A DNA stretch of 64,000 nt from a virus. The position numbers and the translations under genes are program-made. Below, one piece after another: positions 13,763-40,808 of this stretch. Under the pieces are notes generated by a model. It worked only from the letters and a program-made list of their open reading frames with translations, was not told the origin of the DNA and did no database searches. The stretch is from positions 1 to 64,000 of the IMG/VR virus record IMGVR_UViG_3300025574_000001; one strand, given 5' to 3'. The stretch's first letter is position 1. Every line of letters begins with the position of its first letter.

Positions 13763-14674
13763 ATGACAACGACAACAAGCAAAGGCTATCAATACCCAAC
13801 GATTGTTGGTGGGTCTTCTACTGATACCGTCACTTCATATCCTCCTAGTGCAGCAGCGAACGCACTCTTACATGAAGCACGTCCGGGAGTATCATCTGTC
13901 ACAACCACTGTGCGTAATGCGTACACAGGCATTGACCTCTGGGATGGTCGCATCATCTGGAACACCACCACGTTGCGATTGGAAAAATACGACCTAGGAA
14001 CCACATCTTGGATTCCTGCAGCGGCGGGTGCGTCACCAGCCACAACGGTTGCCGGTCCTGCAGCGTTTGGTGATGCAACGATTCTTGGCACATCACTGCT
14101 CTATGCGCGTCAAGATCACAACCACGGACTCCCCGCAACGACAGGACTTGCAACGACTGCCGCATTAACGACTGAGACAACACGCGCTACAACGGCAGAG
14201 ACTGCGGTTAATGTTGCTGTGGGTAATGAAGCAACGACACGTGCAATAGCGGATGCACTCTTACTTCCGAAATTGAATGGCATCCTAACATCTGCGTTTG
14301 AGTCTGTGTATGTCACTGGTTCTGCACCCACATATGGGGGTGAGATTGACATCACGACTAACAGTTCGCTTCTTTTCTTTACCGCGGCTGCATCGACTAA
14401 TTTCTTACCTAATTTTAGAAGTACACCTACCGTTACGTTGAATGCACTTATGGCAGTAAATACATCAATCACTGTCACAATGTTGGTGACGCAGGGTGCC
14501 ACTCCTTATTTCTGTTCAACTTGCGATATTGACGGCGCTTCACAAACAGTTCACTGGCAAGGTGGCATTGCACCAACCGCCGGATTTGCGTCTGGCATTG
14601 ATGCATACACATTCACAATCATCAAAACCGCCAGCGCGACATTCACAGTCCTAGCGAGCCTCACACAGTTCTAA
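13763..14674 (+). CDS. tail fibre protein with DHNHG motif
   Basis: 303 residues. FGDATILGTSLLYARQDHNHGLP is the G.S..YAREDH.H motif of collagen-like and knob-type phage fibres, where the histidines often bind metal in a trimer. Upstream is a domain with LWDGRIIWNTTTLRLEKYD. A coiled stretch (ETTRATTAETAVNVAVGNEATTRAIADALL) precedes a C-terminal beta-rich head. It is probably a receptor-binding or fibre-shaft protein. It ends TAATG with the next gene. Confidence 0.75.
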   Translation: MTTTTSKGYQYPTIVGGSSTDTVTSYPPSAAANALLHEARPGVSSVTTTVRNAYTGIDLWDGRIIWNTTTLRLEKYDLGTTSWIPAAAGASPATTVAGPAAFGDATILGTSLLYARQDHNHGLPATTGLATTAALTTETTRATTAETAVNVAVGNEATTRAIADALLLPKLNGILTSAFESVYVTGSAPTYGGEIDITTNSSLLFFTAAASTNFLPNFRSTPTVTLNALMAVNTSITVTMLVTQGATPYFCSTCDIDGASQTVHWQGGIAPTAGFASGIDAYTFTIIKTASATFTVLASLTQF

Positions 14675-15633
14675 TGCCACCACTCCTTCAAACCGCAGCC
14701 AATGCAGCAGCACGAGCATTCGGATTCATGAGAAATTCGCTTTCTCGAATCTATGATTCATTCGCACGTGTGACCTCTGGTTCACTGGGCACGACAACAA
14801 GTGGGTCAATCTGGAATGCAATCACGGGTGTATGGAATGCTGCAAGTGGTGTGGCGACAACTGCAACATCACCATCATCATATCCGTCGGCAACTATTCC
14901 TGTTGCTGTGAATGCATCAGCATCAGTTGTAAGTCCAAGTCCCGGTGCTGGCGTCATGCTTTGGGAAGCAGGCTCCGGTGACTGGTGGGGTGCAACATCA
15001 TACGTTTCAGAAGCAAGTGTGAACACATACAACTGTGTATCAAATTCTTGTTGCACAACATACAGCACGTGTGCAAGCAATGGGTGTTGCACTACAGCAA
15101 ACTATTCACAATCATACGCAACACCTGCCACATGCCCAGGAACATACACGGCTCCAGGAAATACGATTGCGTGTGCGTTCTCATCGCAGATAAGTGGAGG
15201 TGGACTTCTTACTTGTTACTACAACGGATGTTGTGTTAATAATGGATGTTGCACAGGAAGCCCAACGGGTGGATGTAATTCAAACTCTTGTTGTTCTACA
15301 ACACTTGCGTACACCACATATACGTGGAGTCATTTTGTACAGATTTTGAAATCAGTTGCGAGTGTCATCTCATCTGTTGGTATGTCGGCACTCTTAGGAA
15401 CGAACTCAAATACATCGGGCACATACCCAGGGAGTGTTGTGAACTCACTTATGGTGACAACACTCGGCACAACCATTGAAGCGTTCGCGTATAGTGACAC
15501 CGGATTTGCGACATTGCTTGGCACACTCTCTGAAACGAATGGAGTGACGCCGACAGGAATCGGTGTTGGCATTTTGCTTGCACCCAGTCCTGCCGCACAA
15601 GGCAGTACAGTTGGTCCGTTCACAGCAACGTAA
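14674..15633 (+). CDS. cysteine-rich tail module protein with repeated Cys-Cys motifs
   Basis: 319 residues. The centre (about 121-207) carries 16 cysteines, ten of them in five Cys-Cys pairs in the context N(S/G)CC at 126-127, 138-139, 186-187, 192-193 and 206-207. Flanking parts are Ser/Thr/Ala-rich and fibre-like. I do not recognise the family. The pattern could be a disulfide-linked or metal-binding knob. Encoded in the fibre block and coupled to the fibre gene by TAATG, it is most likely a virion surface component. Confidence 0.65.
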   Translation: MPPLLQTAANAAARAFGFMRNSLSRIYDSFARVTSGSLGTTTSGSIWNAITGVWNAASGVATTATSPSSYPSATIPVAVNASASVVSPSPGAGVMLWEAGSGDWWGATSYVSEASVNTYNCVSNSCCTTYSTCASNGCCTTANYSQSYATPATCPGTYTAPGNTIACAFSSQISGGGLLTCYYNGCCVNNGCCTGSPTGGCNSNSCCSTTLAYTTYTWSHFVQILKSVASVISSVGMSALLGTNSNTSGTYPGSVVNSLMVTTLGTTIEAFAYSDTGFATLLGTLSETNGVTPTGIGVGILLAPSPAAQGSTVGPFTAT

Positions 15634-17371: not shown

Positions 17372-17827
17372 ATGCTTTTAAAAAAACGACTACATCAAGA
17401 CGCTGACAAACTTCTTATTGGACCAAAGAGAACATTTCAGCGCATCATCGTTCATTCACTTATTGATTTGGAATACATTACATCATTAACTTGTGCATGG
17501 GAGTCGTGTGTACTCCCGGGTGTTCCGCTAGCAGCAAGTGGAAGAACACTAGATGGTTTTACAATTGATCATATCATCGCAATAAATGATGGTGGCACTG
17601 ACCGACCAGAAAACATACAACTTCTACATCACACTTGCAATATGCGCAAAGGTGCAATCTTCACTGAAGAACGTCGAGCAAAGATTGCAGAGAAGACAAA
17701 ACTTAGATGGAATGACCCGGCATATAGAAATGCAATGGCCACTCGAACACGATCACAAGAAGAACATGAACATCGAGTTGCAGGAGCACAACGCGGTGAT
17801 GATCATTGGAAAAGAAGGAGTGCCTAA
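17372..17827 (+). CDS. HNH homing endonuclease
   Basis: 151 residues. Zinc-type pairs (C..SC and HHTCN) frame the core IDHIIAINDGGTDRPENIQLLHHTCN, a classical HNH (D-H-I, N, H). A NUMOD-like C-terminal tail follows (TEERRAKIAEKTKLRWNDPAYRNAMATRTRS). It belongs to the DHI...GG.D.P.NIQLL subgroup with the protein at 30507, not the HHKNHNHDDN subgroup. It is inserted just upstream of dNMP kinase and retains the TAATG junction and the kinase ribosome site. Confidence 0.87.
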   Translation: MLLKKRLHQDADKLLIGPKRTFQRIIVHSLIDLEYITSLTCAWESCVLPGVPLAASGRTLDGFTIDHIIAINDGGTDRPENIQLLHHTCNMRKGAIFTEERRAKIAEKTKLRWNDPAYRNAMATRTRSQEEHEHRVAGAQRGDDHWKRRSA

Positions 17828-18348
17828 TGTTGGTGATCTTAGAAGGGCCGGATGGGGCCGGGAAAACTACTCTCGCACAAAAGATTGCGTTCAGTGTTCA
17901 CGGTGTCACTGACATTCGGCATTGTAGTCAACTAAGACGTAACCCTATGGCTGAGTATGTCGAGGACTTACACATGTACGTTCCCGGCACCGGGATGAAT
18001 ATCGTTTACGACCGTCACTACTTAGGTGAACTTACCTATGGACCTTTGTACCGTGGCATATCACAAGTCAGCCCAAGTATTAAGACAGCGATTGAGTACC
18101 GATTAAACAAACTTGGTGCGCTTCTTGTTCATGTGACACACGATCTTCCAACGCTAATTGAACGATGTAAGGATAAGGGCGAAGATTTTTTGCAAGAAGG
18201 TGACATTTACTTTGTGCGTCAACAATTCATTGAAGAAGTTGCGGAGTCGGGAATTAGATTCAAGGCGGCTGTGACAGATGCAACAGGTCAAGACATCCTT
18301 GATATCATCTGGCTTGCACAAGAACTGGAAAAGAGAGTGAGTGAATGA
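17827..18348 (+). CDS. deoxynucleoside monophosphate (thymidylate-type) kinase
   Basis: 173 residues from ATG 17827, chosen because GAAGGAG (17813-17819) is eight bases upstream and ATG overlaps the HNH stop. LVILEGPDGAGKTTLAQKIA is the P-loop; IVYDRHYLGELTYG is the DR(H/Y) motif of thymidylate kinases. The C-terminal half carries the Arg-rich lid (HDLPTLIERCKDKGEDFLQ). It would phosphorylate dTMP to dTDP. If the next gene makes a modified dCMP, this enzyme could also accept it, as T4 gp1 does (inference). It overlaps the ThyA-family gene. Confidence 0.85.
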   Translation: MLVILEGPDGAGKTTLAQKIAFSVHGVTDIRHCSQLRRNPMAEYVEDLHMYVPGTGMNIVYDRHYLGELTYGPLYRGISQVSPSIKTAIEYRLNKLGALLVHVTHDLPTLIERCKDKGEDFLQEGDIYFVRQQFIEEVAESGIRFKAAVTDATGQDILDIIWLAQELEKRVSE

Positions 18349-19217
18349 TCGTAATCCCTAACATGCCTATTGGTTATCGCACAGTCATTGAACATGTCAT
18401 TGCACGCGGGCGTCCTGTTAGTCCTCGAGGAATGCCAACGTTGGAAGTTCCTGATGTTGTTGTGCGTCTTGACAATCCGTTCTTTGCTCTTGCACTCGGT
18501 TCAACACGGAAGATCAATCTGGCGATTGCGGCAGCGGAGACTGTGCAACTTATCGGTGGGTTTCTTGACCCACAACTTTTGACCAGTGTCTCTAAGAACT
18601 TTGAACAGTTCATGGATGATGGCACCTTTCACGGTGGTTATGGCGAACGCATCGGAGATCAGATGTTGCGTGCCGCACAAAAGTTAGTGACGGATCACAG
18701 CACGCGACAAGCCGTGATTCAACTCTGGGACAAGGACAAGGATAATGAAAGCGGATATCACGATTATCCTTGCACTCTTTCACTCGTCTTTCAAGTTCGT
18801 GATGATAAGTTAGAACTTCATACCACGATGCGTTCAAACGACGTGTGGCTTGGGTTTCCTTATGACGTGTTTCAATTCACCCAGTTGCAAATCACGATGG
18901 CACGTGTCTTGGGCTTTGGCATTGGTCCTTACTATCATCATGCTGTAAGTCTGCATCTCTATGATCGAAATCGTTTTGATGCGGAACACTTGCGCATGGT
19001 GCCAGTGACACTCATAGATAACCGTCCACTGGGTTTCGGCAATGTACACACTGACCGAAGTATGAATATCTTTGGTGTATTACAAAGAGCCAAAGATATT
19101 GGGACAGGTAATAAAAGTGAGGTCACAAAGCGTTCACCATCAGAAGAGTGGTACGTGAAGCAGTTGGCACCACACGTTGCACCACACACAAAAGACAAAG
19201 GGACGAGAAACAAATGA
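18345..19217 (+). CDS. ThyA-family enzyme with Asn-to-Asp change; candidate dCMP hydroxymethylase or methylase
   Basis: 290 residues, thymidylate synthase fold. Landmarks: GGYGERI (about 97-103), RQAVIQLWD with Arg121, active-site DYPCTLS with Cys143, RSNDVWLGFPYDVFQF (Arg163, Asp166), and LHLYDRN with His204 and Tyr206 for the dUMP ribose. The residue equal to E. coli ThyA Asn177, which reads the uracil ring, is Asp174 here (PYD in place of PFN). The histidine after the catalytic Cys is Thr. In the family, Asp at that place goes with dCMP as substrate (T4 dCMP hydroxymethylase). A separate ThyX at 39508 supports a role other than dTMP synthesis. Product (hydroxymethyl or methyl) cannot be told. 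It overlaps dCMP deaminase. Confidence 0.85.
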   Translation: MIVIPNMPIGYRTVIEHVIARGRPVSPRGMPTLEVPDVVVRLDNPFFALALGSTRKINLAIAAAETVQLIGGFLDPQLLTSVSKNFEQFMDDGTFHGGYGERIGDQMLRAAQKLVTDHSTRQAVIQLWDKDKDNESGYHDYPCTLSLVFQVRDDKLELHTTMRSNDVWLGFPYDVFQFTQLQITMARVLGFGIGPYYHHAVSLHLYDRNRFDAEHLRMVPVTLIDNRPLGFGNVHTDRSMNIFGVLQRAKDIGTGNKSEVTKRSPSEEWYVKQLAPHVAPHTKDKGTRNK

Positions 19218-19705
19218 CGGCAATAGGACGACGACAGAGTTGGGACAGGACGTGGATGGCCATGGCGTTTGTGATGGCACTTCGGTCAGATTGTACACGC
19301 TCACAAATAGGTGCAGTGATTGTGAATGATAAGAATCGAATCATCGCCACCGGATATAACGGTCCACCCGCGGTAAGTCCTGTCGATTACACATGTCATC
19401 TCTCATGTCCCAGGGCGAATGGTGATGTAGGAGATCAGTACGGGTTCACTTGCATTAGCATTCATGCCGAGGCCAACGCGCTTCTCTTCTGTGATCGGTC
19501 AACGATTGAAGGTGGTTCACTCTATGTGAACGCTGTGCCGTGTCCCGACTGCGCGAAGTTGATTGCGAACAGCGGACTCACGCACGTGTACTTTGTCGAT
19601 GATGGGAAACCAAATCGAATCCCACACACGGTTACAGAATACTTAGACCAACACGGTGTCCTAATGCTAGAGATGCAGATGCGTGATGAGTTTGCAGAAC
19701 GTTAA
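19214..19705 (+). CDS. dCMP deaminase (zinc-dependent)
   Basis: 163 residues from ATG 19214, which overlaps the ThyA-family stop. SIHAEANALLFC supplies zinc ligand His84 and catalytic Glu86; NAVPCPDCAKLI supplies Cys110 and Cys113. An extra cysteine pair (CHLSC at 61-65) is typical of phage and eukaryotic dCMP deaminases with a second zinc. It converts dCMP to dUMP, feeding ThyX. It overlaps the DNA polymerase start. Confidence 0.9.
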   Translation: MTAIGRRQSWDRTWMAMAFVMALRSDCTRSQIGAVIVNDKNRIIATGYNGPPAVSPVDYTCHLSCPRANGDVGDQYGFTCISIHAEANALLFCDRSTIEGGSLYVNAVPCPDCAKLIANSGLTHVYFVDDGKPNRIPHTVTEYLDQHGVLMLEMQMRDEFAER

Positions 19706-21464
19706 ACTCCATTACATCGAGTCGTTGCGTGATGCTGATGAATTCATGTTATGGCTAGGTAATCAGCGTTCCGTTCTTGCAGTTGACACAGAGACGACAG
19801 GTCTCAAGCCGCACAGAGATCACGTGCGCCTTGTGCAATTTGGCGATCACGATGAAGGGTGGACGTTTCGCTGGGATCGATGGGGCGGTGTCGTTAAAGA
19901 AGTGTTTGATAGGTATGAAGGTGATTACGTTTTTCACAACGGAAAATTCGACCTTGCGATGTTGAAGCAGTGGTGTGACGTTGTGATTCCTCCTTCACGT
20001 GTTCACGACACTGCAATCATGGCGCGACTACTTGACCCATGTGGGTTACGTGGTCTTAAGCCGGTGGCCACGATGTTAGTCGATAGGAATGCGGGTGTTG
20101 GTCAAGCGATGTTGGATAAGGCGATGCATGATGGTGGATGGGACTGGTCAACGATTCCGTATGACGTGCCAGCCTACACGATGTATGCCGCGATGGACTG
20201 TGTGCTGACTGTGCGTCTCTTTGAAATTCTCTACCCACAGATCTTGACGACTTGTCCGGTGGCATATGATTTGGAACGTGAGTTCGCTTCTGTGGCGCAA
20301 AAGATCGAGGCTCGAGGATCACAGGTTGACGCGGATTACACTAAGCAAGCATTTGAAAGTCTCACCACGTATATGACGACTGCGGAACAGTGGTGTGTTG
20401 ACAACTACAATGTGAAGCCAGGTTCTAATCAAGCAGTGGTACAAGCGCTTATGAATGATGGTGTATCGTTCATCAAGACAACAAAGGCCGGTGCCGTGTC
20501 GCTTGATGCTGATGTGTTAGAAGGAATTGATCATCCACTTGCAAAGACTGTCTTACAACGACGACAAACGCAAAAGGTAGCGAACACTTATCTCAAAAAC
20601 TTTTTGGAAATGTCCGATGATCAATACATCATTCGCCCAGGGATGGATGCACAAGGAACTGTGACAGGTCGAATGAGTATGGAGTTGCTTCAAACACTCC
20701 CACGTCGCAATGAAGACAACCCGTTAGCGGACATCGTGCGCAACTGCATTGTGCCGCGTGAAGGTAACGTCTTGCTCTTCAGTGACTTTTCCCAGGTGGA
20801 AATGCGTATATTGGCTCACCTCACTGGTGATCCCGGATTAGCAGAAGCATTCACCCAAGATGATTTTTTTCTTAGTGTTACTCGGGAAATTTTCAATGAC
20901 CAAACAATTACAAGAAAAGACCCGCGACGACAGACCACTAAGAATGGGCTCTATGCGTGGGCGTATGGTGCGGGTGCCGATAAGTTCGCGATGACTGCGG
21001 GTATTCCAAGAGAAGAAGGCGCTGTGTTCTTCAACACAATCAAGAATCGTTTCCCGATGATGGAAGGATTCAAGAAACAAGTCGAACGTGTAGCAACTGA
21101 ACGCGCACAACTGGAAGGTCGACCGTATGTCCTGTCGCCTTTCACACGTCAGCCCTACTATCCGCAACGTGAGGATAAGATTTACGCTTTGGTCAACTAC
21201 TTAATTCAAGGTAGTGCGGCATCGATCTTGAAGATGAAGGTTGTTGAACTTGACAACGCGGGTGTTGGCGATTACATCACACTCTTGATTCACGATGAAG
21301 TGATTGTGGATGCACCATTGAATATGAATCGTGAAATCGCTGGCACGATGCAAGCGATAATGAACGATGATCACATATTGTCGGTTCCTCTTATAGCGGA
21401 ACTTAGTGCGGGTTATCGGTGGGGTGAAAAGTTTGATTACCTGGGATCCTCGTTAGATGTCTAG
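19686..21464 (+). CDS. family A DNA polymerase with 3'-5' exonuclease domain
   Basis: About 592 residues; ATG 19686 (a GTG lies one codon earlier). Exonuclease: VLAVDTETTGL (ExoI), VFHNGKFDLAML (ExoII), AYTMYAAMDCVLTVRL (ExoIII). Polymerase: LLFSDFSQVEMRILAHLTGD (motif A), DPRRQTTKNGLYAWAYGAG (motif B), LLIHDEVIVDAP (motif C). No 5'-nuclease domain. In motif B the residue four after the conserved Lys is Tyr, as in T7 DNA polymerase, rather than the Phe of E. coli Pol I. It is the replicative polymerase of the phage. It is followed by an HNH gene that starts inside its last codons. Confidence 0.93.
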   Translation: MSLQNVKLHYIESLRDADEFMLWLGNQRSVLAVDTETTGLKPHRDHVRLVQFGDHDEGWTFRWDRWGGVVKEVFDRYEGDYVFHNGKFDLAMLKQWCDVVIPPSRVHDTAIMARLLDPCGLRGLKPVATMLVDRNAGVGQAMLDKAMHDGGWDWSTIPYDVPAYTMYAAMDCVLTVRLFEILYPQILTTCPVAYDLEREFASVAQKIEARGSQVDADYTKQAFESLTTYMTTAEQWCVDNYNVKPGSNQAVVQALMNDGVSFIKTTKAGAVSLDADVLEGIDHPLAKTVLQRRQTQKVANTYLKNFLEMSDDQYIIRPGMDAQGTVTGRMSMELLQTLPRRNEDNPLADIVRNCIVPREGNVLLFSDFSQVEMRILAHLTGDPGLAEAFTQDDFFLSVTREIFNDQTITRKDPRRQTTKNGLYAWAYGAGADKFAMTAGIPREEGAVFFNTIKNRFPMMEGFKKQVERVATERAQLEGRPYVLSPFTRQPYYPQREDKIYALVNYLIQGSAASILKMKVVELDNAGVGDYITLLIHDEVIVDAPLNMNREIAGTMQAIMNDDHILSVPLIAELSAGYRWGEKFDYLGSSLDV

Positions 21465-21816
21465 CGCACTGCACATACGATTGTTCTTTGCCCATAATGG
21501 TCTTGGACCATACGCTTGTTTCTTTTGTGGTGATGATGTCACACTAGAGAAAGTAACAATTCATCATAAGAATCACAATCATGATGACAACCGAAAATCA
21601 AACTTGAAAGCATCACACTCCGGTTGTCATAGTCGACATCATGCCACCGGGCGTGTTAAATCAGATGAAGAATGCGCAAAGATTTCAATAGCGCGTAAGG
21701 GTATGTTTGAACGTGGTGAACTTGTATCACCAACAAAAGGTGTAGGTCACACACCCGAAACTCGCGCAAAGATGAGTGCATCAATGATGGGAAACTTGAA
21801 TGGAAAACGAAGGTGA
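21457..21816 (+). CDS. HNH homing endonuclease
   Basis: 119 residues; ATG 21457 overlaps the polymerase end. The order FFAHNGLGPYACFFCGDD, HHKNHNHDDNRKSNLK, SGCHSRHH mirrors the protein at 435, so the two are paralogues. A C-terminal NUMOD3-like unit (TPETRAKMSASMMG) is present. It is inserted between DNA polymerase and a RuvC-like nuclease, a favoured site for homing genes. Confidence 0.87.
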   Translation: MSSALHIRLFFAHNGLGPYACFFCGDDVTLEKVTIHHKNHNHDDNRKSNLKASHSGCHSRHHATGRVKSDEECAKISIARKGMFERGELVSPTKGVGHTPETRAKMSASMMGNLNGKRR

Positions 21817-26295: not shown

Positions 26296-27153
26296 ATGAT
26301 GGCAGAATTTGATTGGTCCACACTGATGGAGCAAGCGGGTACATCGCTTGTGCCGATTCCAGATGGTGAGTATGAATTGCAGTGCAGTTCAGCGAAGCCA
26401 GGAACATCAAGTAACGGTAAGCAGACATTCAATTGTCGATTCACCGTTGTGCAAGGACCGCACACATCACGACCCGTGTACAACACCTTCACGATTTCGC
26501 CGGAAAGTCCGCCAGCAATTGCGTTCTTCTTTCGACACATGAAGGCGTTTGGTTTGGACCTCGAATACTTTAAGAGGAACCCAACACCGGACCAAGTTGC
26601 GGATGCGTTGATTGGGAAGTTGGTTCACGCAAAGATCGGTCACAAGACGTACCAAGGTGAAGTGCGAAACGAGTGCAATGGTTTTTCAGCATCACTGCTT
26701 GCACCCGGGAGTGTTCCTGTGACACCAACACCAGCACCAGTTGGTGGTGGTCCAGTGACAGCACCACCGCCTCCTATCGCATCAGTTCCAACACCGGCAG
26801 TCCCGCCAGTCGCAGCCGCACCTGCACCTATTGTTGCGCCTGCACCAGTTGCGGAGACGGTTGCACCGCCTCCTGCTGCTGTACGCACGTTCAATCCACC
26901 CGATGGTCAAGAGTGGAATGGGACAGCGTGGATATGGCCAGTGGAACGTGTCGCGGGTTGGAACTGGGATGTTGCTTCGCAGACTTGGGTAAACCCAGTT
27001 CCTGCGGCTGTGACGCCTCCACCACCGCCCGCACCACCTGCACCACCTGCACCACCCGCTGCACCCGCTGCACCAGCCGCACCGCTTGCACCTCCTGTTG
27101 CTGCCGCTCCCACGGCTGCGACAGTTCCTGGTGCACCTTCAGTTCCGTTTTAA
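26296..27153 (+). CDS. SSB-like DNA-binding protein with long Pro/Ala tail
   Basis: 285 residues. Residues 1-135 (FDWSTLMEQAGTSLVPIPDGEYELQC... KLVHAKIGHKTYQGEVRNE) match the DUF669-type phage proteins regarded as single-strand DNA-binding. Residues about 137-200 and 235-285 are low-complexity Pro/Ala with a WNGTAWIWPVERVAGWNWD insert between. The chain ends VPF, recalling the DIPF tip of SSB that recruits partners, though without acidic residues. It follows the Sak4-like ATPase, the usual pairing. Confidence 0.75.
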   Translation: MMAEFDWSTLMEQAGTSLVPIPDGEYELQCSSAKPGTSSNGKQTFNCRFTVVQGPHTSRPVYNTFTISPESPPAIAFFFRHMKAFGLDLEYFKRNPTPDQVADALIGKLVHAKIGHKTYQGEVRNECNGFSASLLAPGSVPVTPTPAPVGGGPVTAPPPPIASVPTPAVPPVAAAPAPIVAPAPVAETVAPPPAAVRTFNPPDGQEWNGTAWIWPVERVAGWNWDVASQTWVNPVPAAVTPPPPPAPPAPPAPPAAPAAPAAPLAPPVAAAPTAATVPGAPSVPF

Positions 27154-27165
27154 GGAAGGATGACG

Positions 27166-28473
27166 ATGGGTAAGAGAATCGGATACGCGAAGTTAGGGCG
27201 TTCAATGCCACTTGTTGCTAGTGAAGGCGACTTCAGTGATGATGAACCTGCACGTGTGTTACGTGATCTTGCCCATCGTCACCCGGAGGATGAATTCGTT
27301 ATTCTTGGATTCAATTCATGTGATGACAATGCAACAGCACGTATGCCCGACAACGTTGTGAACCCGTGGCATGATGGGTGGCGTGATTCATTGAAAGAAT
27401 TAAGAACGGGTTGGAAGGCGCCACTAGGACCAGAGAATCAGATGAAGATACAAGATTGGGGTGACGCAAACATTCTCCCATGGTTTCGTTCGTGTGATGC
27501 TGTGATCATCTGGCTTGGACAACATGGGAACACGAATAGTTTTATCCCGCCAGCAAATGGGTTGTGGTCTGATGGTGCAGTTAAACTTCACGACGAATAC
27601 CTTTCGTATGGAAGTTACTGTGTACGTGGTGTGAATGCATTTCGTCAAGCCGACCCACTCACACGTGAAGAAATTTATCTAGTCGCTGACGGACGTAATC
27701 ATTTGAAAGCACGTGACACAAAGTGGCCACTTAAGCATCCGATTCAGGGACAATACATTTGGTCACGTAAGACGAAGTTTGAACGTTATGGCGATACACG
27801 ATCACCCGAAGAGTGTGGGTTCCCAGAAGCAGAGTGGGACAACGATCACATATGGATGGCCGATGTGAAGTATGAATACACACGTCTTGAAATCTCAGGC
27901 ATCCTTCCCTGGGAAGTTGACATTCGTTACTCTGAGGAATTTGATTCACGACGTCACTTTGGTCTTTTCATCAATGAGGCAAGAGCGTATGTTGGCGTGT
28001 CACGTCTTAAGGCGATGCAAGAGTACGTGTTACAACTAAACCCGGTGTTCATTCATGGAAAATGGGGTAAGGAATCATTAGCCGTTCTTGGCTTTGATAT
28101 TCAGCAAGCGCCCGCAACGATTTACTATGACATCTTACGTTCTGTGAAGTGTACGTTCTCAACACCTTCATCAGGTACGGGTTGGGCAACGACGAAACCG
28201 TGGCAAGGTTTCGGTTGCGGGACCGTGACGTTCTTTCATCCGAAATACGACACACAAGACAACATCCTTGGTGATGCACCCAAGGAACTTCGCGATTGGC
28301 TTCGTGTCACATCACCTGAACAATTGAAAAAGCGCGTGGAACATCTTGACACTCACTATGACGATTGGCTTTGGATTATCCGCGAACAGAAAAAGCATTA
28401 TGATACGGCAGTTGCAGAGATGAGACACATCAAAAAAATTGAGGAGAGAATATATGGTAATGACAATGGATGA
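27166..28473 (+). CDS. GT-B-type glycosyltransferase
   Basis: 435 residues; ATG 27166 is preferred over 27160 because AAGGAAGG (27152-27159) leaves proper spacing. The first half is Rossmann-like (IGYAKLGRSMPL, DAVIIWLGQHGN). The second half has LQLNPVFIHGKWGKESLAVLG and then ILRSVKCTFSTPSSGTGWATTKPWQGFGCGTVTFFHPKYD, the donor-site layout of GT-B enzymes. LRDWLRVTSPEQLKKRVEHL is the usual C-terminal helix. The acceptor is unknown. It opens an overlapping block with another glycosyltransferase and a sugar-nucleotide epimerase inside the DNA metabolism region, which favours phage DNA as acceptor (inference). Confidence 0.72.
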   Translation: MGKRIGYAKLGRSMPLVASEGDFSDDEPARVLRDLAHRHPEDEFVILGFNSCDDNATARMPDNVVNPWHDGWRDSLKELRTGWKAPLGPENQMKIQDWGDANILPWFRSCDAVIIWLGQHGNTNSFIPPANGLWSDGAVKLHDEYLSYGSYCVRGVNAFRQADPLTREEIYLVADGRNHLKARDTKWPLKHPIQGQYIWSRKTKFERYGDTRSPEECGFPEAEWDNDHIWMADVKYEYTRLEISGILPWEVDIRYSEEFDSRRHFGLFINEARAYVGVSRLKAMQEYVLQLNPVFIHGKWGKESLAVLGFDIQQAPATIYYDILRSVKCTFSTPSSGTGWATTKPWQGFGCGTVTFFHPKYDTQDNILGDAPKELRDWLRVTSPEQLKKRVEHLDTHYDDWLWIIREQKKHYDTAVAEMRHIKKIEERIYGNDNG

Positions 28474-29545
28474 AACGACGACACACATCAAAGAACCACC
28501 GAAAAAATTGGACATAGCAATTGTGTCCACATCAATCAATGAAGCACCAGTGGCGTATGCGAAGTGGGCAAAGTTAGGACGCTTAATTATTGCGGGTGAC
28601 AAGAACACACCACCTACACTTGAACACTACATCAAATCCCTGGGTGAACAACACCAGTACATACCGCCGGCGCAACAAGATCGATGGGAATCGAGTGAAG
28701 TGATTGGGTGGCATAACATCCAACGTCGCAACATTGCAATCCTCGAGGCGATTAAGTCAGATGTTGATTACATCATCACAGTGGATGACGACAACATCCC
28801 ACTTCAAAACATTGATCTTATACTCTCTGCATTTGAAAATTCTCACGCACTACACGTTAGTTCAGCACTAGGTTGGTACGACCCGTGTCGTGAACTTATC
28901 CCCGCTGTGTGGCATCGTGGATTCCCATATTCTTTTCGCAATCAGCAAGGTAAGCAAGGAGTTGAGTCGCTTGAACGATATGACGTGATAAAAGTGCCAA
29001 TAGGTGTTGTGGCGGCAACGTGGTTGGGTGAACCTGATGTTGGTGCAATTGACCGCATCACGAATCACGTACTTGTTCAAGGACATCACGCCACTCTGTT
29101 AGACCCGGGTGTTGTGCTACAACCAGGAACGTGGTGTCCGTTCAATTCGCAAGCAACAGCGTGGCGTGCAGAGTACGCTTCACTGATGATGTGCTGGCCT
29201 GGTGTTGGTCGATTCGATGACATCTTCGCAAGTTTTGCAGCGCGTCGAGTGTTGGATGAATTGGGTGTTGGTGTGAAGTATGTGCAACCACTTGTGCGTC
29301 AAGATCGCAATGAACACGATTCATTCGTTGACCTTGAGAATGAAATGTTTGGCTACAAACATCAAGATGAGTTGTGCGAACTTCTTCGTGCAGTTGACTT
29401 ACGTGGTATAGATGACGTGCAAGATATGCAACATCACGTCTATGATGCTCTTAGTGGCGCTAGATTTTTACCACATAGAACTATTGAATCATTTGAGTGT
29501 TGGATGAACGACGTTAAGACAGCGGAAAAGGAGCGTGCAGTATGA
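28454..29545 (+). CDS. GT-A glycosyltransferase of STELLO / reversibly glycosylated polypeptide type
   Basis: 363 residues; ATG 28454 has GAGGAG at 28441-28446. LDIAIVSTSINE opens the nucleotide-binding fold; NIQRRNIAILEAIKSDVDYIITVDDDN carries the metal-binding acidic triad at about 111-113; WYDPCRELIPAVWHRGFPYS and GRFDDIFASFAARRVLDELG follow. This matches STELLO/GT75-like proteins, some of which are UDP-arabinose mutases rather than transferases. So it may transfer or isomerise a sugar nucleotide. It overlaps both neighbours in frame. Confidence 0.75.
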   Translation: MVMTMDETTTHIKEPPKKLDIAIVSTSINEAPVAYAKWAKLGRLIIAGDKNTPPTLEHYIKSLGEQHQYIPPAQQDRWESSEVIGWHNIQRRNIAILEAIKSDVDYIITVDDDNIPLQNIDLILSAFENSHALHVSSALGWYDPCRELIPAVWHRGFPYSFRNQQGKQGVESLERYDVIKVPIGVVAATWLGEPDVGAIDRITNHVLVQGHHATLLDPGVVLQPGTWCPFNSQATAWRAEYASLMMCWPGVGRFDDIFASFAARRVLDELGVGVKYVQPLVRQDRNEHDSFVDLENEMFGYKHQDELCELLRAVDLRGIDDVQDMQHHVYDALSGARFLPHRTIESFECWMNDVKTAEKERAV

Positions 29546-30510
29546 AGATAGCGGTTACGGGTGCAGGTGGATTCATTGGTGGTCACCTTGTCAATCAGTT
29601 GTTGAATGATGGACACCAAGTTTCGGCGTATGACATTAAGCCGTTAAGAGAATGGCAACAAGTTCGTGGCGATGCGCGTAATCATCCTCTTGTTGATGTT
29701 GGTATGAACAATGCTGATTTTGATTTTGAAGATATGGATGAAGTGTATCAACTTGCAGCCGACATGGGCGGGTTGGGATTCATTCAAAACAACAAAGCAC
29801 GATGCATGCTATCGGTTCTTGCATCAACGAACACATTGTTAAAAGCCAATGAAGCGGGTGTAGGTCGATTCTTTTACCCATCATCAGCGTGTGCGTACCC
29901 AGCGGGTGTGCAGACTGAAATTGATTCACCGCCAATTAAAGAAAGCGACATATACCCGGCGATGCCAGAGGATGGGTACGGCTGGGAGAAGTTATTCAGT
30001 GAGCGAATGTGTAATCACTTCTATGAAGACTTCGGTCTTGAAACACGTGTGGCGCGATACCACAACACATACGGCCCATGGGGTGAATGGGAAGGTGGTC
30101 GTGACAAGGCTCCCGCGGCAATGTGTAGGAAAGTCGCAATCGCTAAGTTGTCAAAGAGTCATGAAGTTGAAGTATGGGGTGATGGAATGCAAACACGAAC
30201 GTTCACATACATTGATGATTGTCTAAAAGGCACAGTGATGTTGACGCGAAGTGACGTGCATGAACCCGTGAACCTTGGTTCCGCGGAACTCATATCCATC
30301 AATGATCTGGCGAATCTCACTGCACTTATTGCCGGCGTGAACATCCACATACGTCATATCCCCGGCGCGTTGGGCGTGCGAGGTCGATGCAGTGACAACA
30401 CACTCATCAATAAGTTATTTGACTGGGAACCTAGCATTTCATTAAGTGAAGGAATGGAACGCACTTATGAATGGGTTTATAATCAGGTGAAGGCAAAATA
30501 TTTCTCATGA
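29542..30510 (+). CDS. GDP-mannose 3,5-epimerase-like enzyme
   Basis: 322 residues, short-chain dehydrogenase/epimerase fold. NAD site TGAGGFIGGHL (6-16); LAADMGGLGFIQ; SSACAYP with Cys117; DGYGWEK with Tyr146 and Lys150; NTYGPWGEWEGGRDKAPAAM with Lys189; VWGDGMQTRTFTYIDDC; HIPGALGVRGRCSDN. These blocks match plant GDP-mannose 3,5-epimerase closely and keep its catalytic Cys, Tyr, Lys and Lys. That enzyme turns GDP-D-mannose into GDP-L-galactose and GDP-L-gulose. In the operon it would supply a sugar donor to the two glycosyltransferases. Exact substrate is inferred. Confidence 0.85.
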   Translation: MKIAVTGAGGFIGGHLVNQLLNDGHQVSAYDIKPLREWQQVRGDARNHPLVDVGMNNADFDFEDMDEVYQLAADMGGLGFIQNNKARCMLSVLASTNTLLKANEAGVGRFFYPSSACAYPAGVQTEIDSPPIKESDIYPAMPEDGYGWEKLFSERMCNHFYEDFGLETRVARYHNTYGPWGEWEGGRDKAPAAMCRKVAIAKLSKSHEVEVWGDGMQTRTFTYIDDCLKGTVMLTRSDVHEPVNLGSAELISINDLANLTALIAGVNIHIRHIPGALGVRGRCSDNTLINKLFDWEPSISLSEGMERTYEWVYNQVKAKYFS

Positions 30511-30875
30511 TAACTGGCAATTGTGTTAAGTGTGGCACATGGCGACAGTCACTTCATCGTGATCATATCATTGCAAAGTGCAATGGTGGAAGTGATGATC
30601 CCAGTAACATCCAGTTGTTGTGCGCGAATTGTCATGAAGACAAAACACGTGAAGATTTAACAGGTCGAACAATAAGTGAAGAAACACGTGCCAAAATAAA
30701 AGGTCATCCTCATCGTGGTCCTAAACATCATTCACCAGAAACACGTGCAAAAATAGGTGAAGCGCGAAAAGGACAAGTGTTCACGCCAGAGACACGGGCG
30801 AAGATGAGTACATCAGCAAAAGAATCATCTAAACGCGGATGGGAAACACGACGAAGAAATGAGAGAAAAACATGA
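30507..30875 (+). CDS. HNH homing endonuclease with NUMOD3 repeats
   Basis: 122 residues, ATGA overlap with the epimerase. CVKCGTWRQ, then HRDHIIAKCNGGSDDPSNIQLLCANCH (HNH core with two Cys pairs), then three NUMOD3-like units (SEETRAKI, SPETRAKIGEARKG, TPETRAKMS). It is of the same subgroup as the protein at 17372. It sits between the epimerase and the NTP pyrophosphatase. Confidence 0.88.
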   Translation: MITGNCVKCGTWRQSLHRDHIIAKCNGGSDDPSNIQLLCANCHEDKTREDLTGRTISEETRAKIKGHPHRGPKHHSPETRAKIGEARKGQVFTPETRAKMSTSAKESSKRGWETRRRNERKT

Positions 30876-31348
30876 CATTCACACCACCCGAATCAGATGA
30901 CTACACATTCAGTGAGTGGCTTGACTCCACAACTGAATTGCAAGTGGGCGCATACGGAATCAACCCGGGGAAATTGCAGGGTGAAGCGTTGAAAGGATGG
31001 TGTGCAATCAACGTTCTTGCAGCCACTGATGAACTTCACGAATTCTTACAGGAAGTGCCGTGGAAGCCGTGGGCATCAGGTATGCAAATCAATCGTGATG
31101 CAGCCATCAGTGAAATCGTTGACACCATGCACTTCATCTCAAACTTGTTGGCGACATTCGACGTCACAGGTGAAGAACTTACACGTGTGTATAAGGCAAA
31201 GCAAATTCGCAACGCACAACGTCAAGCCGAAGGCTACACGGGATTGGACAAGTGTTCAGGTTGTCACCGCGACAAACAAGAAGTCGGCGGATGCATACAT
31301 GAACAAGGTCCAATGACGTGCAATGGTTGTGGGACGGTGTGGCTGTGA
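30872..31348 (+). CDS. all-alpha NTP pyrophosphatase (dUTPase/dCTPase-like) with zinc ribbon
   Basis: 158 residues. ATDELHEFLQEVPWKPW gives E54-x-x-E57, and EIVDTMHFISN gives E81-x-x-D84, the magnesium-binding ExxE...ExxD signature of MazG/dimeric dUTPases; VYKAKQIRNAQRQ.EGYTG is the following helix. A C-terminal Cys cluster (CSGC, GGC, CNGC) forms a zinc ribbon. T4 dCTPase-dUTPase gp56 is in this superfamily. Here the enzyme may remove dUTP, or dCTP if cytosine is replaced. Substrate is not decidable from sequence. Confidence 0.75.
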   Translation: MTFTPPESDDYTFSEWLDSTTELQVGAYGINPGKLQGEALKGWCAINVLAATDELHEFLQEVPWKPWASGMQINRDAAISEIVDTMHFISNLLATFDVTGEELTRVYKAKQIRNAQRQAEGYTGLDKCSGCHRDKQEVGGCIHEQGPMTCNGCGTVWL

Positions 31349-31725
31349 GTACGCGAACACATCAAAAAGTTTTTCTAACAAATAATGGTGATGGGCCGTG
31401 GCCTTGTCACTTTTGCAAAGAACTTGTGTATGGACCTATTCCAAATGGAAAAACAAAATATGTTGCTATTGTTCATCACATTGATGAAGATCGTTCTAAC
31501 AATGACAAATTGAATCTTGTAGTGGCTCATCACAGTTGCCATTCTTCATATCACGCAACTCATCCACCAAATGATGTTACACAAAGTGACCAAGCCAAAC
31601 GAGGTTGGAAGACACGAAAACTTCAAGGAAATAATCTTGCTAATGCATACTGCACAACACGTGGTATGAAACGCAGCAACGCAACAAGTAAGGGTTGGAT
31701 AACGCGAAAGAGGAATGCATTATGA
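31345..31725 (+). CDS. HNH homing endonuclease
   Basis: 126 residues from GTG 31345 (GTGA overlap). VFLTNNGDGPWPCHFCKELV, then IVHHIDEDRSNNDKLNLVVAHHSCHSSYHATH is the same architecture as the proteins at 435 and 21457, but more diverged. The NUMOD-like tail is degenerate (AKRGWKTRKL, SKGWITRKR). It sits directly before the cytosine methyltransferase. Confidence 0.83.
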   Translation: MSTRTHQKVFLTNNGDGPWPCHFCKELVYGPIPNGKTKYVAIVHHIDEDRSNNDKLNLVVAHHSCHSSYHATHPPNDVTQSDQAKRGWKTRKLQGNNLANAYCTTRGMKRSNATSKGWITRKRNAL

Positions 31726-32936
31726 CAAAGTCAACTCACACAGCCATTGATGTACAAGGTTTCGCTGGCGGGTTCACACTGGGAATGGTGCAGGCAGGTT
31801 TCACACTTGTTTCAAAATGCGAAATGAAGGGTGCATTCGGTGCAGCCAACTGTGAAGCGAATCGTCATCTTCTTGGCAACAAGTGGGATCTTCAAGTTGG
31901 GCCACAGGAGAGTTGGGAAAACCGAGGTGCTGAAGTTCAGTTTGGCAATCCTCCGTGTAGTGCGTTCAGTCCTCTTAGCGCGAAATCGTTTCGTGGTATG
32001 AACAGTCCTATCGCCCACTGTATGTGGGCAGAAAGTCAGTACGCCGCACGTGCAATGCCATATGTGATGATCTTTGAGTCTGTGCAACAGGCTTACAATC
32101 AAGGTCTCCCGATGATGCGCGATATTCGCACGTGGCTTGAACACGAATCAAAAACGAAGTGGGAACTGTATCACGTCCTTCATAACAATGCCGGCCTAGG
32201 TGGTGCGTCAATTCGTAAGCGATATTTCTATGTGGTGTCGCGTATCCCATTTGGTGTTGATGAACCACACATCACACGTGTGCCAGTTCTTAAGGATGTG
32301 TTAGGTGATCTAATGGGACTGGGTCAGACGTGGGAAGCCCAAGCCTATCGACGTCAACCATCGTGGTGGGCAAAGCCAATGCGTTCAAAGTTGAATGTTG
32401 TGGATGGTCACATCGGTCGCAACAACGCAGTGGATGTGTTGCGTGTATTGCAACTTCTTGACGCTGTGCCGTGGGGTGAAGGTGAAGTTGTTGGGCAAGT
32501 CGCGAAAAGGTACTATGAACAGTACGGCGAACTTCCTGATCTCTGGACCAACACGCAGAAGTGGGTGGACAAGGATTGGCAGATGGGATTTCACCAACCC
32601 ATCAAAATGAAATGGGACAAGATGGCGCGAGTGATCACAGGCGCAGTGTTGCATAAGAACATTCACCCACGGGAGAATCGGTTTCTTACACATCGCGAGG
32701 CTGCACGAATTCAAGGGTTTCCTGATGACTGGAACATTCGCCCGTTGCGTGGCGTGAGTGGATTAAGCGCAACGTGGGGCAAGGGTATCCCAGTGCAAGC
32801 GGGCAAGTGGATTGGAACAGCGATTAAGAATGCACTTGACGACAACCCGCAGGAATATCAAGGTGAATTGATTGGAGAGAGGGAACACGTCATCGACTGG
32901 ACTAACACATATCGAAAATTCACGACTGAACGGTAG
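31722..32936 (+). CDS. DNA C5-cytosine methyltransferase-like protein
   Basis: 404 residues from ATG 31722 (ATGA overlap). Motif I DVQGFAGGFTLGMVQAGF, motif IV FGNPPCSAFSPLSAK with catalytic Cys79, motif VIII SIRKRYFYV, motif IX THREAARIQGFPDDW, motif X GKGIPVQAGKWIG. Motif VI reads FESVQQ (Glu119-Ser-Val) where canonical enzymes have ENV; the Glu is kept. It would methylate cytosine C5 at an unknown target, or do a related C5 chemistry. It is the last gene of the modification block, followed by a promoter region. Confidence 0.82.
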   Translation: MTKSTHTAIDVQGFAGGFTLGMVQAGFTLVSKCEMKGAFGAANCEANRHLLGNKWDLQVGPQESWENRGAEVQFGNPPCSAFSPLSAKSFRGMNSPIAHCMWAESQYAARAMPYVMIFESVQQAYNQGLPMMRDIRTWLEHESKTKWELYHVLHNNAGLGGASIRKRYFYVVSRIPFGVDEPHITRVPVLKDVLGDLMGLGQTWEAQAYRRQPSWWAKPMRSKLNVVDGHIGRNNAVDVLRVLQLLDAVPWGEGEVVGQVAKRYYEQYGELPDLWTNTQKWVDKDWQMGFHQPIKMKWDKMARVITGAVLHKNIHPRENRFLTHREAARIQGFPDDWNIRPLRGVSGLSATWGKGIPVQAGKWIGTAIKNALDDNPQEYQGELIGEREHVIDWTNTYRKFTTER

Positions 32937-34701: not shown

Positions 34702-34937
34702 TGGCGAGTGATGAGGCGTTTGAAACCAGTGAAGGTGAACTGCGGCAGATGGGTTGGCTCTCTCCTGAAGATCGAAAGATCATCGCGACGGGAGTTGACT
34801 ATCTGGCGACGACTCATCACGAAGGTCAGCACACCGCAATGATTCAGCAAGGTATGCGCACAGTGACTGGGTGTGATGCCAAGAGTTGTAAGTATGCCAC
34901 TGAACTACTGACGTGGCTTAAGACAGAAAGGACGTGA
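34698..34937 (+). CDS. hypothetical protein
   Basis: 79 residues, mostly helical (GVDYLATTHHEGQHTAMIQQGMRTVTGCD). Two cysteines near the end (GCDAKSCKYA). Not recognised. Overlaps both neighbours. Confidence 0.55.
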   Translation: MMASDEAFETSEGELRQMGWLSPEDRKIIATGVDYLATTHHEGQHTAMIQQGMRTVTGCDAKSCKYATELLTWLKTERT

Positions 34938-35509
34938 AGAATATGGTCACACCGACTGATGCACAGATTGTTAGCACTGCATTCACAGATGAACCGATGA
35001 CACTGCAACAACTTGTCCATAGGACGGGTCTTACGAAGTTGCGCGTGAACAACGCGCTTGATGAACTGGTGGATGCAGGTCGCATTCACACAGGATCCAA
35101 CAACACATGGAGCCTTAAGCCCATGAGAAGGAGTGCAACTGCAATGTCGAATATCCCAGTCCCACCATCCCCACCCGCTAAGAAAGCGCCAGCGGCTAAG
35201 AAGGCAGCCAAGAAGGTGCCAGCGAAGAAGGCACCTGCAAAGAAGGTGGCGAAGGCTGCCAAGAAGGCGCCCGCAAAAACAAAGGGAGTCGTCAAGAGCC
35301 ACAGCGATATTGAAGAGCGTGACAACACCGCGCTTACGATTATCGCCAAGGCAAAGGACGGGCTCACGAAGGATGAACTGACGGAGGCCATGAAGTTGGA
35401 AGCCGGGTTGGTCAACATGTCCATCTACCGTTTGCAGCGTGACGGTAAGATTGCCAAGAACGCGGGTGTCAAAGGCGAAGGACGCCAAGTCAAGTGGGTT
35501 GCTGTTTAA
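34934..35509 (+). CDS. histone-like protein with two winged-helix domains and Lys/Ala/Pro linker
   Basis: 191 residues from GTG 34934 (ATG 34943 possible). Residues about 5-60 are a winged helix (TLQQLVHRTGLTKLRVNNALDELVDAGRI). Residues about 77-120 are a tandem of PAKK/AAKK units, as in histone H1 and actinobacterial HupB/Lsr2-associated tails. Residues about 125-190 are a second winged helix (GLTKDELTEAMKLEAGLVNMSIYRLQRDGKI). It probably binds phage DNA without strong sequence choice. It is the last gene before a strong terminator. Confidence 0.75.
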   Translation: MKNMVTPTDAQIVSTAFTDEPMTLQQLVHRTGLTKLRVNNALDELVDAGRIHTGSNNTWSLKPMRRSATAMSNIPVPPSPPAKKAPAAKKAAKKVPAKKAPAKKVAKAAKKAPAKTKGVVKSHSDIEERDNTALTIIAKAKDGLTKDELTEAMKLEAGLVNMSIYRLQRDGKIAKNAGVKGEGRQVKWVAV

Positions 35510-39236: not shown

Positions 39237-39511
39237 CTAAGTCCATCTCTCTCCCTCTTCATTAGTTCGATGCAGCCCGCGTACCCAGCGATGTCAATGA
39301 GTGAATCACGTTGACCGCCACCATTGTTGTACCGGGCAATCTTCACACCAATCATACACAGTGCAACTTGTTCAGGTGTGACGTCGACACCAAGGATAGG
39401 ACTCCACAATCCCGCAATAGTTGTGAATGATTGTAGTGGTGTGCCATAGTCTTGTTGACGTTCGCCATTGATGATTTCATCGGCTTCACGTAATACTGAC
39501 TTTTCACTCAT
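39233..39511 (-). CDS. DUF6378-type phage protein
   Basis: 92 residues. EADEIINGERQQDYGTPLQSFTTIAGLWSPILGV, then TPEQVALCMIGVKIARYNNGG and DSLIDIAGYAGCIEL follow the conserved pattern of this small phage family, often beside nucleotide-metabolism genes. Function unknown; the all-helical shape recalls NTP pyrophosphatases. ATGA overlap with ThyX upstream. Confidence 0.8.
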   Translation of the reverse strand: MSEKSVLREADEIINGERQQDYGTPLQSFTTIAGLWSPILGVDVTPEQVALCMIGVKIARYNNGGGQRDSLIDIAGYAGCIELMKRERDGLS

Positions 39512-40332
39512 GGGCGTTCCTTGTCATGGCGTAGTTGGTGCCACCCGGTGAAGTTGGCGTGGTTGTGATGCTCATATGAATTGTTGTAATCACAAGCGAA
39601 TGCCTGGTGCTCAAGTGGTGATGCGTGCATCGGGTTTGCGTTTGTGAGTTGCTCATAAAGGCGCGCATCAGCATCAAAGTCTTTAACGTCACCGGCGTGT
39701 AGTGATGACACACGCGCACAACGCGCCACACTCATGATTTGGCATTCGCCCAGTGAACGGGTGCGTGATTCTTCTTCAGTGACATAAGGCAAATGCCAGT
39801 ACCGAAGTTGCGGCGTGCTCTCATCCATTGCTTGCTTCATCAGCACCGCCGCTGCACGAATCTCTGGTTGTGCCATTGGTGAACAACGCAAGCCAAAGAA
39901 GTTATCCCATTCAGTCGATGTGACCACAATGGTGTGCCACATGAATGGTTCAAGATAGCGGTTAAGAACTGATTTGTGAAGACGGTGTTCAGGATCAGGA
40001 TGACGGTTGAGATAGATGATAATTGAATCAGTCGTATCCACAAGAATGTCACGAATAAGATCCTGTGCGTCACTCAAGTCTTGACCTTCCAGTTCACTGC
40101 CACCTTGCATACCCTTTTGTTCGCGTGGATGTGAGATAGGTAGTGCGGGTGATTCATCGATTCTGTCCAGTTGCTTTTGAATCGGAATGGCGCGTGAGGA
40201 CGCAGAGTTCCTGGAGAAAACACGGTGCGTGTTGAATTCAGCCAACACGAATCGGTGAAGTGTCACTTCCATCGTTGTGATTCGTGCACCCGTGTAGATT
40301 GAATCTTCAATGATCTTGGCTTCTGTGTTCAT
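39508..40332 (-). CDS. thyX: flavin-dependent thymidylate synthase ThyX
   Basis: 274 residues from ATG at 40332 (overlaps upstream TGA). LAEFNTHRVFSRNSASSRAIP is the phage form of the ThyX HRx(n)S signature that binds FAD and dUMP; STEWDNFFGLRC and NPMHASPLEHQAFACD are further family blocks. It methylates dUMP to dTMP using FADH2 and folate. Its presence makes the ThyA-family gene at 18345 redundant as a thymidylate synthase. Located in the leftward operon, separate from other nucleotide genes. Confidence 0.9.
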   Translation of the reverse strand: MNTEAKIIEDSIYTGARITTMEVTLHRFVLAEFNTHRVFSRNSASSRAIPIQKQLDRIDESPALPISHPREQKGMQGGSELEGQDLSDAQDLIRDILVDTTDSIIIYLNRHPDPEHRLHKSVLNRYLEPFMWHTIVVTSTEWDNFFGLRCSPMAQPEIRAAAVLMKQAMDESTPQLRYWHLPYVTEEESRTRSLGECQIMSVARCARVSSLHAGDVKDFDADARLYEQLTNANPMHASPLEHQAFACDYNNSYEHHNHANFTGWHQLRHDKERP

Positions 40333-40808
40333 GGCAGTACCACGTGTTCGCACTTATCACAACAACCGTCCTCACCCAGTCGTCTTTGTTCCATACACAA
40401 GTCAAGGATCGTATGACACGCGACACATGAACTTGTTCGATTCTCTTCCACAACACGCGCTTCATATTCCTTCCACGCAATCACAGCCGCTTTGAACAAC
40501 ACATTCGTTTCAAAGAGGTTGCCAATGTCGGCACCTTCGAGATGTGTGAACACTTCAACCATGTGTTTGATTTGTTGCGCCTGCACGTCAGGGCGTGTGT
40601 ATTCACTGAAGACCTTTAACGCATCAATGAACACACTGTCAATCTGTTCTTGCAAGGCAAGAGTGGCGTGTGTTTGTGCCATGATGCTAAGTGCTACTGC
40701 ATCCCAGTGATTATCTTCATCACGTGAAAAAACCAAATCATCCGCAGTTCTCAATAATCGTGCTGCTTCATGCACGTGAATCGCTACTGCATCTATTTCG
40801 TCACTCAT
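40329..40808 (-). CDS. hypothetical protein with C-terminal cysteine cluster
   Basis: 159 residues, helical for about 115 residues (VHEAARLLRTADDLVFSRDEDN..., QIKHMVEVFTHLEGADIG). The end CVACHTILDLCMEQRRLGEDGCCDKCEH gives a zinc ribbon-like cluster. Not recognised. Overlaps ThyX and the 47-residue gene. Confidence 0.6.
   Translation of the reverse strand: MSDEIDAVAIHVHEAARLLRTADDLVFSRDEDNHWDAVALSIMAQTHATLALQEQIDSVFIDALKVFSEYTRPDVQAQQIKHMVEVFTHLEGADIGNLFETNVLFKAAVIAWKEYEARVVEENRTSSCVACHTILDLCMEQRRLGEDGCCDKCEHVVLP

Follow-up and report, generated by a model that had tools for sequence, protein, structure and literature searches.

Predicted L-galactofuranose decoration of hydroxymethylcytosine DNA by a three-gene locus with an exchangeable donor module in an uncultured phage

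Described systems and the gene trio

In phage T4 (gp42 and b-gt), a ThyA-family hydroxymethylase with a base-reading Asp, a dCTPase and a deoxynucleoside monophosphate (dNMP) kinase are combined with post-replicative sugar transfer by the GT-B enzyme BGT; the donor is host UDP-glucose and no donor enzymes are encoded. Arabinosyl-hydroxymethylcytosine is present in RB69 DNA (PMC6024577) and a pentose system acts on cytosine in Thanatos (PMC12838424), so that in both phages cytosine carries a non-glucose sugar, the donor of which is proposed to be phage-made. A comparable locus was analysed in a 64,000-base window (bases 1–64000 of the 75,028-base IMG/VR virus record IMGVR_UViG_3300025574_000001). 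Three genes, G1, G2 and G3, are predicted to encode a BGT-like glycosyltransferase, a mutase resembling MtdL and a GDP-mannose 3,5-epimerase, respectively, and genes for the T4-like hydroxymethylcytosine set lie in the same operon. The general idea of a T4-like plan that ends in an unusual sugar has good support from the protein comparisons described below.

Drawing on gene order, folds, active-site residues and co-conservation, we predict the reactions, the acceptor and the sugar as follows. Some or all of the cytosine would be replaced by 5-hydroxymethylcytosine through the dCTPase, the dCMP hydroxymethylase, the dNMP kinase and the polymerase, and glycosylation would follow DNA synthesis. 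G3 would convert host GDP-D-mannose to GDP-L-galactose, G2 would contract the ring to give GDP-L-galactofuranose and G1 would move the furanose onto the hydroxymethyl group of the DNA cytosine. We consider this pathway, ending in L-galactofuranose on hydroxymethylcytosine DNA, to be probable. The initial annotation had suggested a DNA sugar derived from GDP-L-galactose; the GDP-mannose-derived route is retained here, with a furanose in place of the pyranose.

The locus differs from T4 in that the donor, GDP-L-galactofuranose, is predicted to be made by the phage. It differs from RB69, in which a pentose donor is proposed to be built by a kinase/nucleotidyltransferase and an isomerase, in using a GDP-mannose epimerase and a GT75 mutase. 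A further parallel is the A201A pathway, in which MtdL is homologous to G2 (PMC9937993) and the predicted product of G3 is the substrate of MtdL. The sugar is placed on a nucleoside antibiotic in that pathway, whereas the predicted acceptor here is phage DNA. The A201A cluster reportedly includes a matching epimerase. No earlier description of a phage GDP-mannose epimerase or of furanose DNA sugars was found in the open literature; subscription papers may hold one. If the pathway is correct, an apparently new sugar, a furanose, would be added to the natural DNA decorations, with consequences for the way in which type IV restriction that senses sugars, base-excision defences and CRISPR nucleases deal with unfamiliar DNA sugars. 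The three enzymes (G3, G2 and G1) form a pathway ready for in vitro study.

The trio is genuine and is part of a nucleotide/replication operon. As the initial annotation had stated, the open frames overlap and are placed between the gene in the position of a single-stranded DNA (ssDNA)-binding protein and an NTP pyrophosphatase gene, away from tail genes; the flanking genes belong to recombination and dNTP metabolism. The genes run head to tail (Table 1). G2 starts at the ATG at 28454, with a GAGGAG-type ribosome site 6 nt upstream and a 20-bp overlap with G1, and the G2/G3 junction is a 4-bp ATGA overlap.

Predicted functions of the three proteins and the acceptor enzymes

The assignment of G1 (437 amino acids) as a GT-B transferase was borne out by its predicted structure. 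The AlphaFold2 model, calculated from a 54-row alignment, had a mean predicted local distance difference test (pLDDT) score of 92.5 and a two-domain GT-B fold. In a Foldseek search of the PDB, ranks 1–6 were all T4 BGT structures (E 3e-9 to 4e-8), above every other GT-B enzyme, at template-modelling (TM) scores of only ~0.5–0.65; in a viral structure library, rank 2 was a protein named DNA beta-glucosyltransferase. An hhalign comparison with seven T4-type BGTs gave an E value of 1.1e-6, restricted to the C-terminal 76 columns, in which the G1 donor motif GWATTKPW... was aligned with the BGT stretch containing Arg269/Glu272. Lys346, Asp364 and Gln366 of this motif were invariant in the 54 aligned proteins. 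Gln121-His122 were likewise invariant (54/54) and are candidates for the place of BGT Asp100. G1 thus shares the overall fold of BGT and lies outside the T4 BGT family at the sequence level, with no matches to the BGT family models; it is predicted to work like BGT and is not filed as a member of that family.

G1 itself has no convincing Pfam or PHROG family; weak Glyco_trans_1_2 matches were obtained for 12 of the 54 aligned proteins, and the sequence profile gave no credible match to solved structures. No relative was found by tblastn among 50,697 phage records or confirmed in bacterial genomes, and peptide patterns taken from G1 alone gave no match in IMG/VR, so that an alignment query (built from four sequences) was required. 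With this query 64 loci with G1 were located in IMG/VR, and these yielded 54 complete homologues that differ from one another. Dozens of viral contigs thus share both G1 and its place in the operon, a conservation far beyond chance.

G2 had been described as STELLO/RGP-like with a role as a second transferase. The RGP match was reproduced (PF03214, E 9e-7), STELLO was matched weakly and the transferase role gave way to that of a mutase. The G2 profile matched MtdL with an E value of 4e-66 and UDP-arabinopyranose mutase with 2e-5. The AlphaFold2 model (pLDDT 92.4) had a TM score of 0.82 to MtdL along the full length and 0.67 to a plant mutase, with the mutase-specific core and C-terminal helices present; the next matches, outside GT75, trailed far behind (query TM ≤0.41). 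MtdL is a characterized GT75 mutase converting GDP-L-galactopyranose to GDP-L-galactofuranose, in which Arg159, Asp195, Arg257 and Asp260 are essential and the equivalent of Arg159 is autoglycosylated in plants (PMC9937993). The corresponding G2 residues, R154, D194, R252 and D255, were each present in 38/38 relatives. The DDD motif corresponds to D110–D112 of G2 (37/38, 38/38 and 38/38), and the equivalents of MtdL Asp109 and Gln229 were each found in 37 of the 38. G2 is most likely a GT75-like mutase acting in the manner of MtdL and not a second transferase; as a mutase product, the predicted sugar is L-galactofuranose and not a pyranose.

The epimerase assignment of G3 held on both homology and active-site residues. 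The best five PDB sequences were all GDP-mannose 3,5-epimerases (E 4e-92 to 3e-91, the next family following at 8e-27), and the identity to the Arabidopsis enzyme was ~46%. NCBIfam gave no name, all matches being far under the cut-off. Equivalents of Cys145, Tyr174, Lys178, Lys217 and Arg306, which we take to be the catalytic positions, are all present, and Cys145/Lys217 and Tyr174-x3-Lys178 are kept in the window and in the eight other loci of the same type. A second, ~25%-identical epimerase replaces G3 in 16 loci, with a 17th copy (L073) outside the slot; in 17/17 loci with this type, the Cys and Lys217 needed for 3,5-epimerization are lost. G3 is accordingly annotated as a GDP-mannose 3,5-epimerase with a complete active site and predicted activity. 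GDP-L-gulose is a possible additional product of GDP-mannose epimerases.

G2 was present in 9/9 loci with the GDP-mannose epimerase. At the nucleotide-reading position, each of the 24 G2s encoded next to an epimerase has Thr13; where phages of this group have no epimerase gene beside G2, five of nine alignable G2s have Pro there, the residue of UDP-users. The correspondence with the donor module is suggestive only, because the G1s of the five Pro phages share one tree branch.

On the acceptor side, the T4-like set proposed earlier (a ThyA-family enzyme with Asp, a dNMP kinase and an all-alpha NTP pyrophosphatase) was recovered by Pfam and PHROG matches and by residue comparison, and a dCMP deaminase was found as well. 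The closest solved relative of the ThyA homologue is the CMP 5-hydroxymethylase MilA, and Asp occupies the base-reading site at which thymidylate synthase has Asn. The determinants are Asp for base reading, the catalytic Cys, and Ser and Arg marking deoxyribonucleotide users (PMC5175136); D174, C143, S164 and R121 were all invariant in 21 aligned relatives. The window also encodes ThyX, so that the ThyA homologue is not needed for dTMP and is freed for another reaction. It is predicted to be a dCMP hydroxymethylase. The ThyA family was detected in 32 of 36 G1-bearing records; the remainder comprised three records of 20.9–31.9 kb and one with the operon running into the contig end. A search of the 36 records for TET/JBP dioxygenases gave no match, and the positive control gave none either.

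Donor genes in related loci and alternative readings

In syntenic loci the gene beside G1 was a GT75 gene with a GDP-mannose epimerase in nine (window included), a GT75 gene with another epimerase in 16, a GT75 gene alone in 12 and a nucleotidyltransferase with or without a kinase in 11, the last set occupying the slot in loci without G2. On the G1 tree the donor labels changed eight times, against a shuffled mean of 26, and none of 200 shuffles was as low. The labels follow the tree, and the donor type has therefore been inherited with G1, yet swapped several times. One locus of the nucleotidyltransferase type, L068, encodes a nucleotidyltransferase/kinase fusion together with a sugar isomerase that matches an arabinose-5-phosphate isomerase; these donor genes match, along most of their length, phage genes proposed for the RB69 arabinose donor, so that a G1 locus with donor genes of RB69 type exists. 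In the cultured Actinomycetia phage DSL-LC01 (L080:6908-10053) the GT75 slot is filled by a UDP-galactopyranose mutase (PF03275, E 5e-30) unrelated to GT75, in the order polymerase ... RecA-like, transferase, mutase, MazG, C5-methyltransferase. That this slot is occupied by mutases of two unrelated families suggests a recurring use of furanoses. Among cultured relatives, Micrococcus phage Kurnik shares this operon with DSL-LC01, and Gordonia phage Sixama has a related gene set. The G1 profile did not match the proteins that occupy the position of G1 in these three phages, where a different transferase is therefore probable.

Related phages would thus keep G1 and the hydroxymethylcytosine machinery while exchanging the donor-making genes, giving the same armour with different sugars. 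We give an even chance to the wider proposal of a large uncultured phage group with hydroxymethylcytosine armoured by furanoses, interchangeable phage-encoded donor modules and one conserved BGT-like transferase, in which the sugar of the window would be L-galactofuranose and a C5-methyltransferase homologue with a motif X of the carboxy-S-adenosylmethionine (carboxy-SAM) type may add a second cytosine modification. Phages would then diversify their decoration by donor-module swaps around a constant transferase.

Several observations count against the proposed pathway. The link between G1 and BGT is remote (~10% identity), and T4 Asp100 has no certain equivalent in G1. The Mn ligand His287 of MtdL is Gln282 in G2 (Gln in 35/38 relatives) and Asp87 is Ile88; since active plant enzymes have Ser at the latter position, the change of His287 to Gln is the sole real gap. 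ThyA-family enzymes may methylate dCMP rather than hydroxymethylate it, as in phage Xp12 (PMC5175136), and dCMP hydroxymethylases are not separated from dCMP methylases by sequence. The C5-methyltransferase homologue of the operon is unexplained under full cytosine replacement. Pairs of GT75 and GDP-mannose-epimerase genes are also common in the glycan clusters of other phages, without cytosine-modifying genes.

The two MtdL residues missing from G2 would fit a reading in which G1 and G2 are both transferases and G2, with a GT-A fold, adds a second sugar from GDP-L-galactose to give a disaccharide like those of T2 and T6; GT75 enzymes are GT-A-folded and able to glycosylate an arginine, and two-transferase systems are known in T-even phages. 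This is unlikely, as the best match of G2 is a mutase, the equivalents of the essential Arg159 and Asp260 are kept and other phages fill the slot with donor makers (a nucleotidyltransferase or the UDP-galactopyranose mutase).

Glycan clusters in which GT75 and GDP-mannose-3,5-epimerase-like genes are adjacent or near were seen in L136, L137, L140, L150 and L155; no hydroxymethylcytosine genes were seen nearby, and the pair resembles a portable donor module.

The frequency of GT75–epimerase pairs outside the group supports the two enzymes working together; their occurrence in glycan clusters also means that the pair alone is not diagnostic and is not tied to DNA. Wide occurrence of the trio without cytosine-modifying genes had been named in the initial annotation as a finding that would refute a DNA sugar, and such occurrence was observed for the pair and not for the trio. 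Decoration of virion proteins or of the host surface by the cassette, to which the clusters (cyanophages included) would point, is very improbable: the trio lies between recombination and dNTP genes with no tail genes near, and G1 is DNA-glycosyltransferase-like and tied to the ThyA homologue with Asp. The predicted link to DNA is carried by G1 and the ThyA operon.

The C5-methyltransferase homologue contains the PPC and R-x-R motifs, and homologues share the G1 operon in most loci. Lys replaces HhaI Asn304 in the window copy and in 43/43 homologues examined. A basic residue at this position binds carboxy-SAM, leading to 5-carboxymethylcytosine, in engineered M.MpeI N374K and in natural CmoX (Arg350) (PMC12783734). 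It is therefore conceivable that the acceptor does not come from ThyA, the methyltransferase homologue instead installing, for example, 5-carboxymethylcytosine that is later modified, or ThyA making 5-methyl-dCMP. We regard this as quite improbable. CmoA was not found in the 36 G1-bearing records, although controls including Escherichia coli were detected, and the amide ligases that accompany CmoX were not seen here; the ThyA homologue has the cytosine, deoxyribose and catalytic determinants, and a hydroxymethyl group is the acceptor of T4 BGT. The combination characteristic of CmoX, Arg at the HhaI Asn304 site with a CmoA partner, is absent from the operon homologue, which shares with CmoX (PMC12783734) a positively charged residue, has Lys in place of Arg and may be an ordinary methyltransferase. 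A new cofactor use is possible. Hydroxymethylcytosine made by the ThyA homologue remains the preferred acceptor.

Operon layout and further features of the window

Upstream of G1 are the dNMP-kinase-like, ThyA, dCMP deaminase and family A polymerase genes, together with genes for a RuvC-like protein, an SNF2 helicase, a PD-(D/E)XK nuclease, an AAA_24 ATPase and the putative ssDNA-binding protein; the last had no Pfam match and is named from its position. G3 is followed by an HNH gene, the NTP pyrophosphatase gene and, farther 3' in the operon, the C5-methyltransferase homologue.

Table 1. Features of the locus and its surroundings (window coordinates).
Feature	Coordinates	Strand	Assignment	Basis
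dNMP-kinase-like P-loop protein	17806..18348	+	Possible hydroxymethyl-dCMP kinase	PHROG thymidylate kinase E 6e-16
ThyA-family enzyme	18345..19217	+	Predicted dCMP 5-hydroxymethylase	PF00303; MilA best PDB match; Asp174, Cys143, Ser164, Arg121
dCMP deaminase	19148..19705	+	dCMP deaminase	PF00383 E 2e-20
Family A DNA polymerase	19683..21464	+	Would use hydroxymethyl-dCTP	PF00476 E 5e-57
ssDNA-binding gene	26296..27153		Putative; 5' neighbour of G1	Position
G1	27160..28473	+	GT-B glycosyltransferase resembling BGT, predicted to act on DNA hydroxymethylcytosine	AlphaFold2 fold, PDB matches, hhalign, operon conservation
G2	28454..29545	+	GT75/MtdL-type nucleoside diphosphate pyranose–furanose mutase, predicted GDP-L-galactopyranose to GDP-L-galactofuranose	Profile, AlphaFold2 model, catalytic residues
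G3	29542..30510	+	GDP-D-mannose 3,5-epimerase, predicted GDP-L-galactose maker	Plant enzyme homology, active-site residues
HNH gene	30507..30875		HNH-type gene	
All-alpha NTP pyrophosphatase	30872..31348	+	Predicted dCTPase/dUTPase	PF08761 E 3e-10, PHROG dUTPase E 3e-23
C5-cytosine-methyltransferase homologue	31695..32936	+	Conserved operon partner	PF00145; motifs; Lys replacing motif X Asn
ThyX	39508..40353	-	Flavin-dependent thymidylate synthase	PF02511 E 6e-9, PHROG E 2e-55

Small HNH-type genes that resemble one another in their tails are inserted between other genes genome-wide, in at least five places (405–908, 17372–17827, 21457–21816, 30507–30875 and 31318–31725), and seem to represent homing-type endonucleases of one family that is spreading; the copy directly after G3 has a NUMOD3 motif. 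A winged-helix-like protein with an Ala/Lys-rich middle is encoded at 34934–35509, and roughly half of the relatives of the methyltransferase homologue (e.g. L002, L034 and L055) seem to carry a similar domain as a C-terminal fusion. In the structural region, a 319-amino-acid protein (14674–15633) is dense in Cys-Cys repeats (NSCCTT, NGCC, SNSCC) and is unlike its neighbours. A 1087-amino-acid protein (54541–57804) is built from numerous short repeats of the GTFTGSYTST / GAYTYSATG type.

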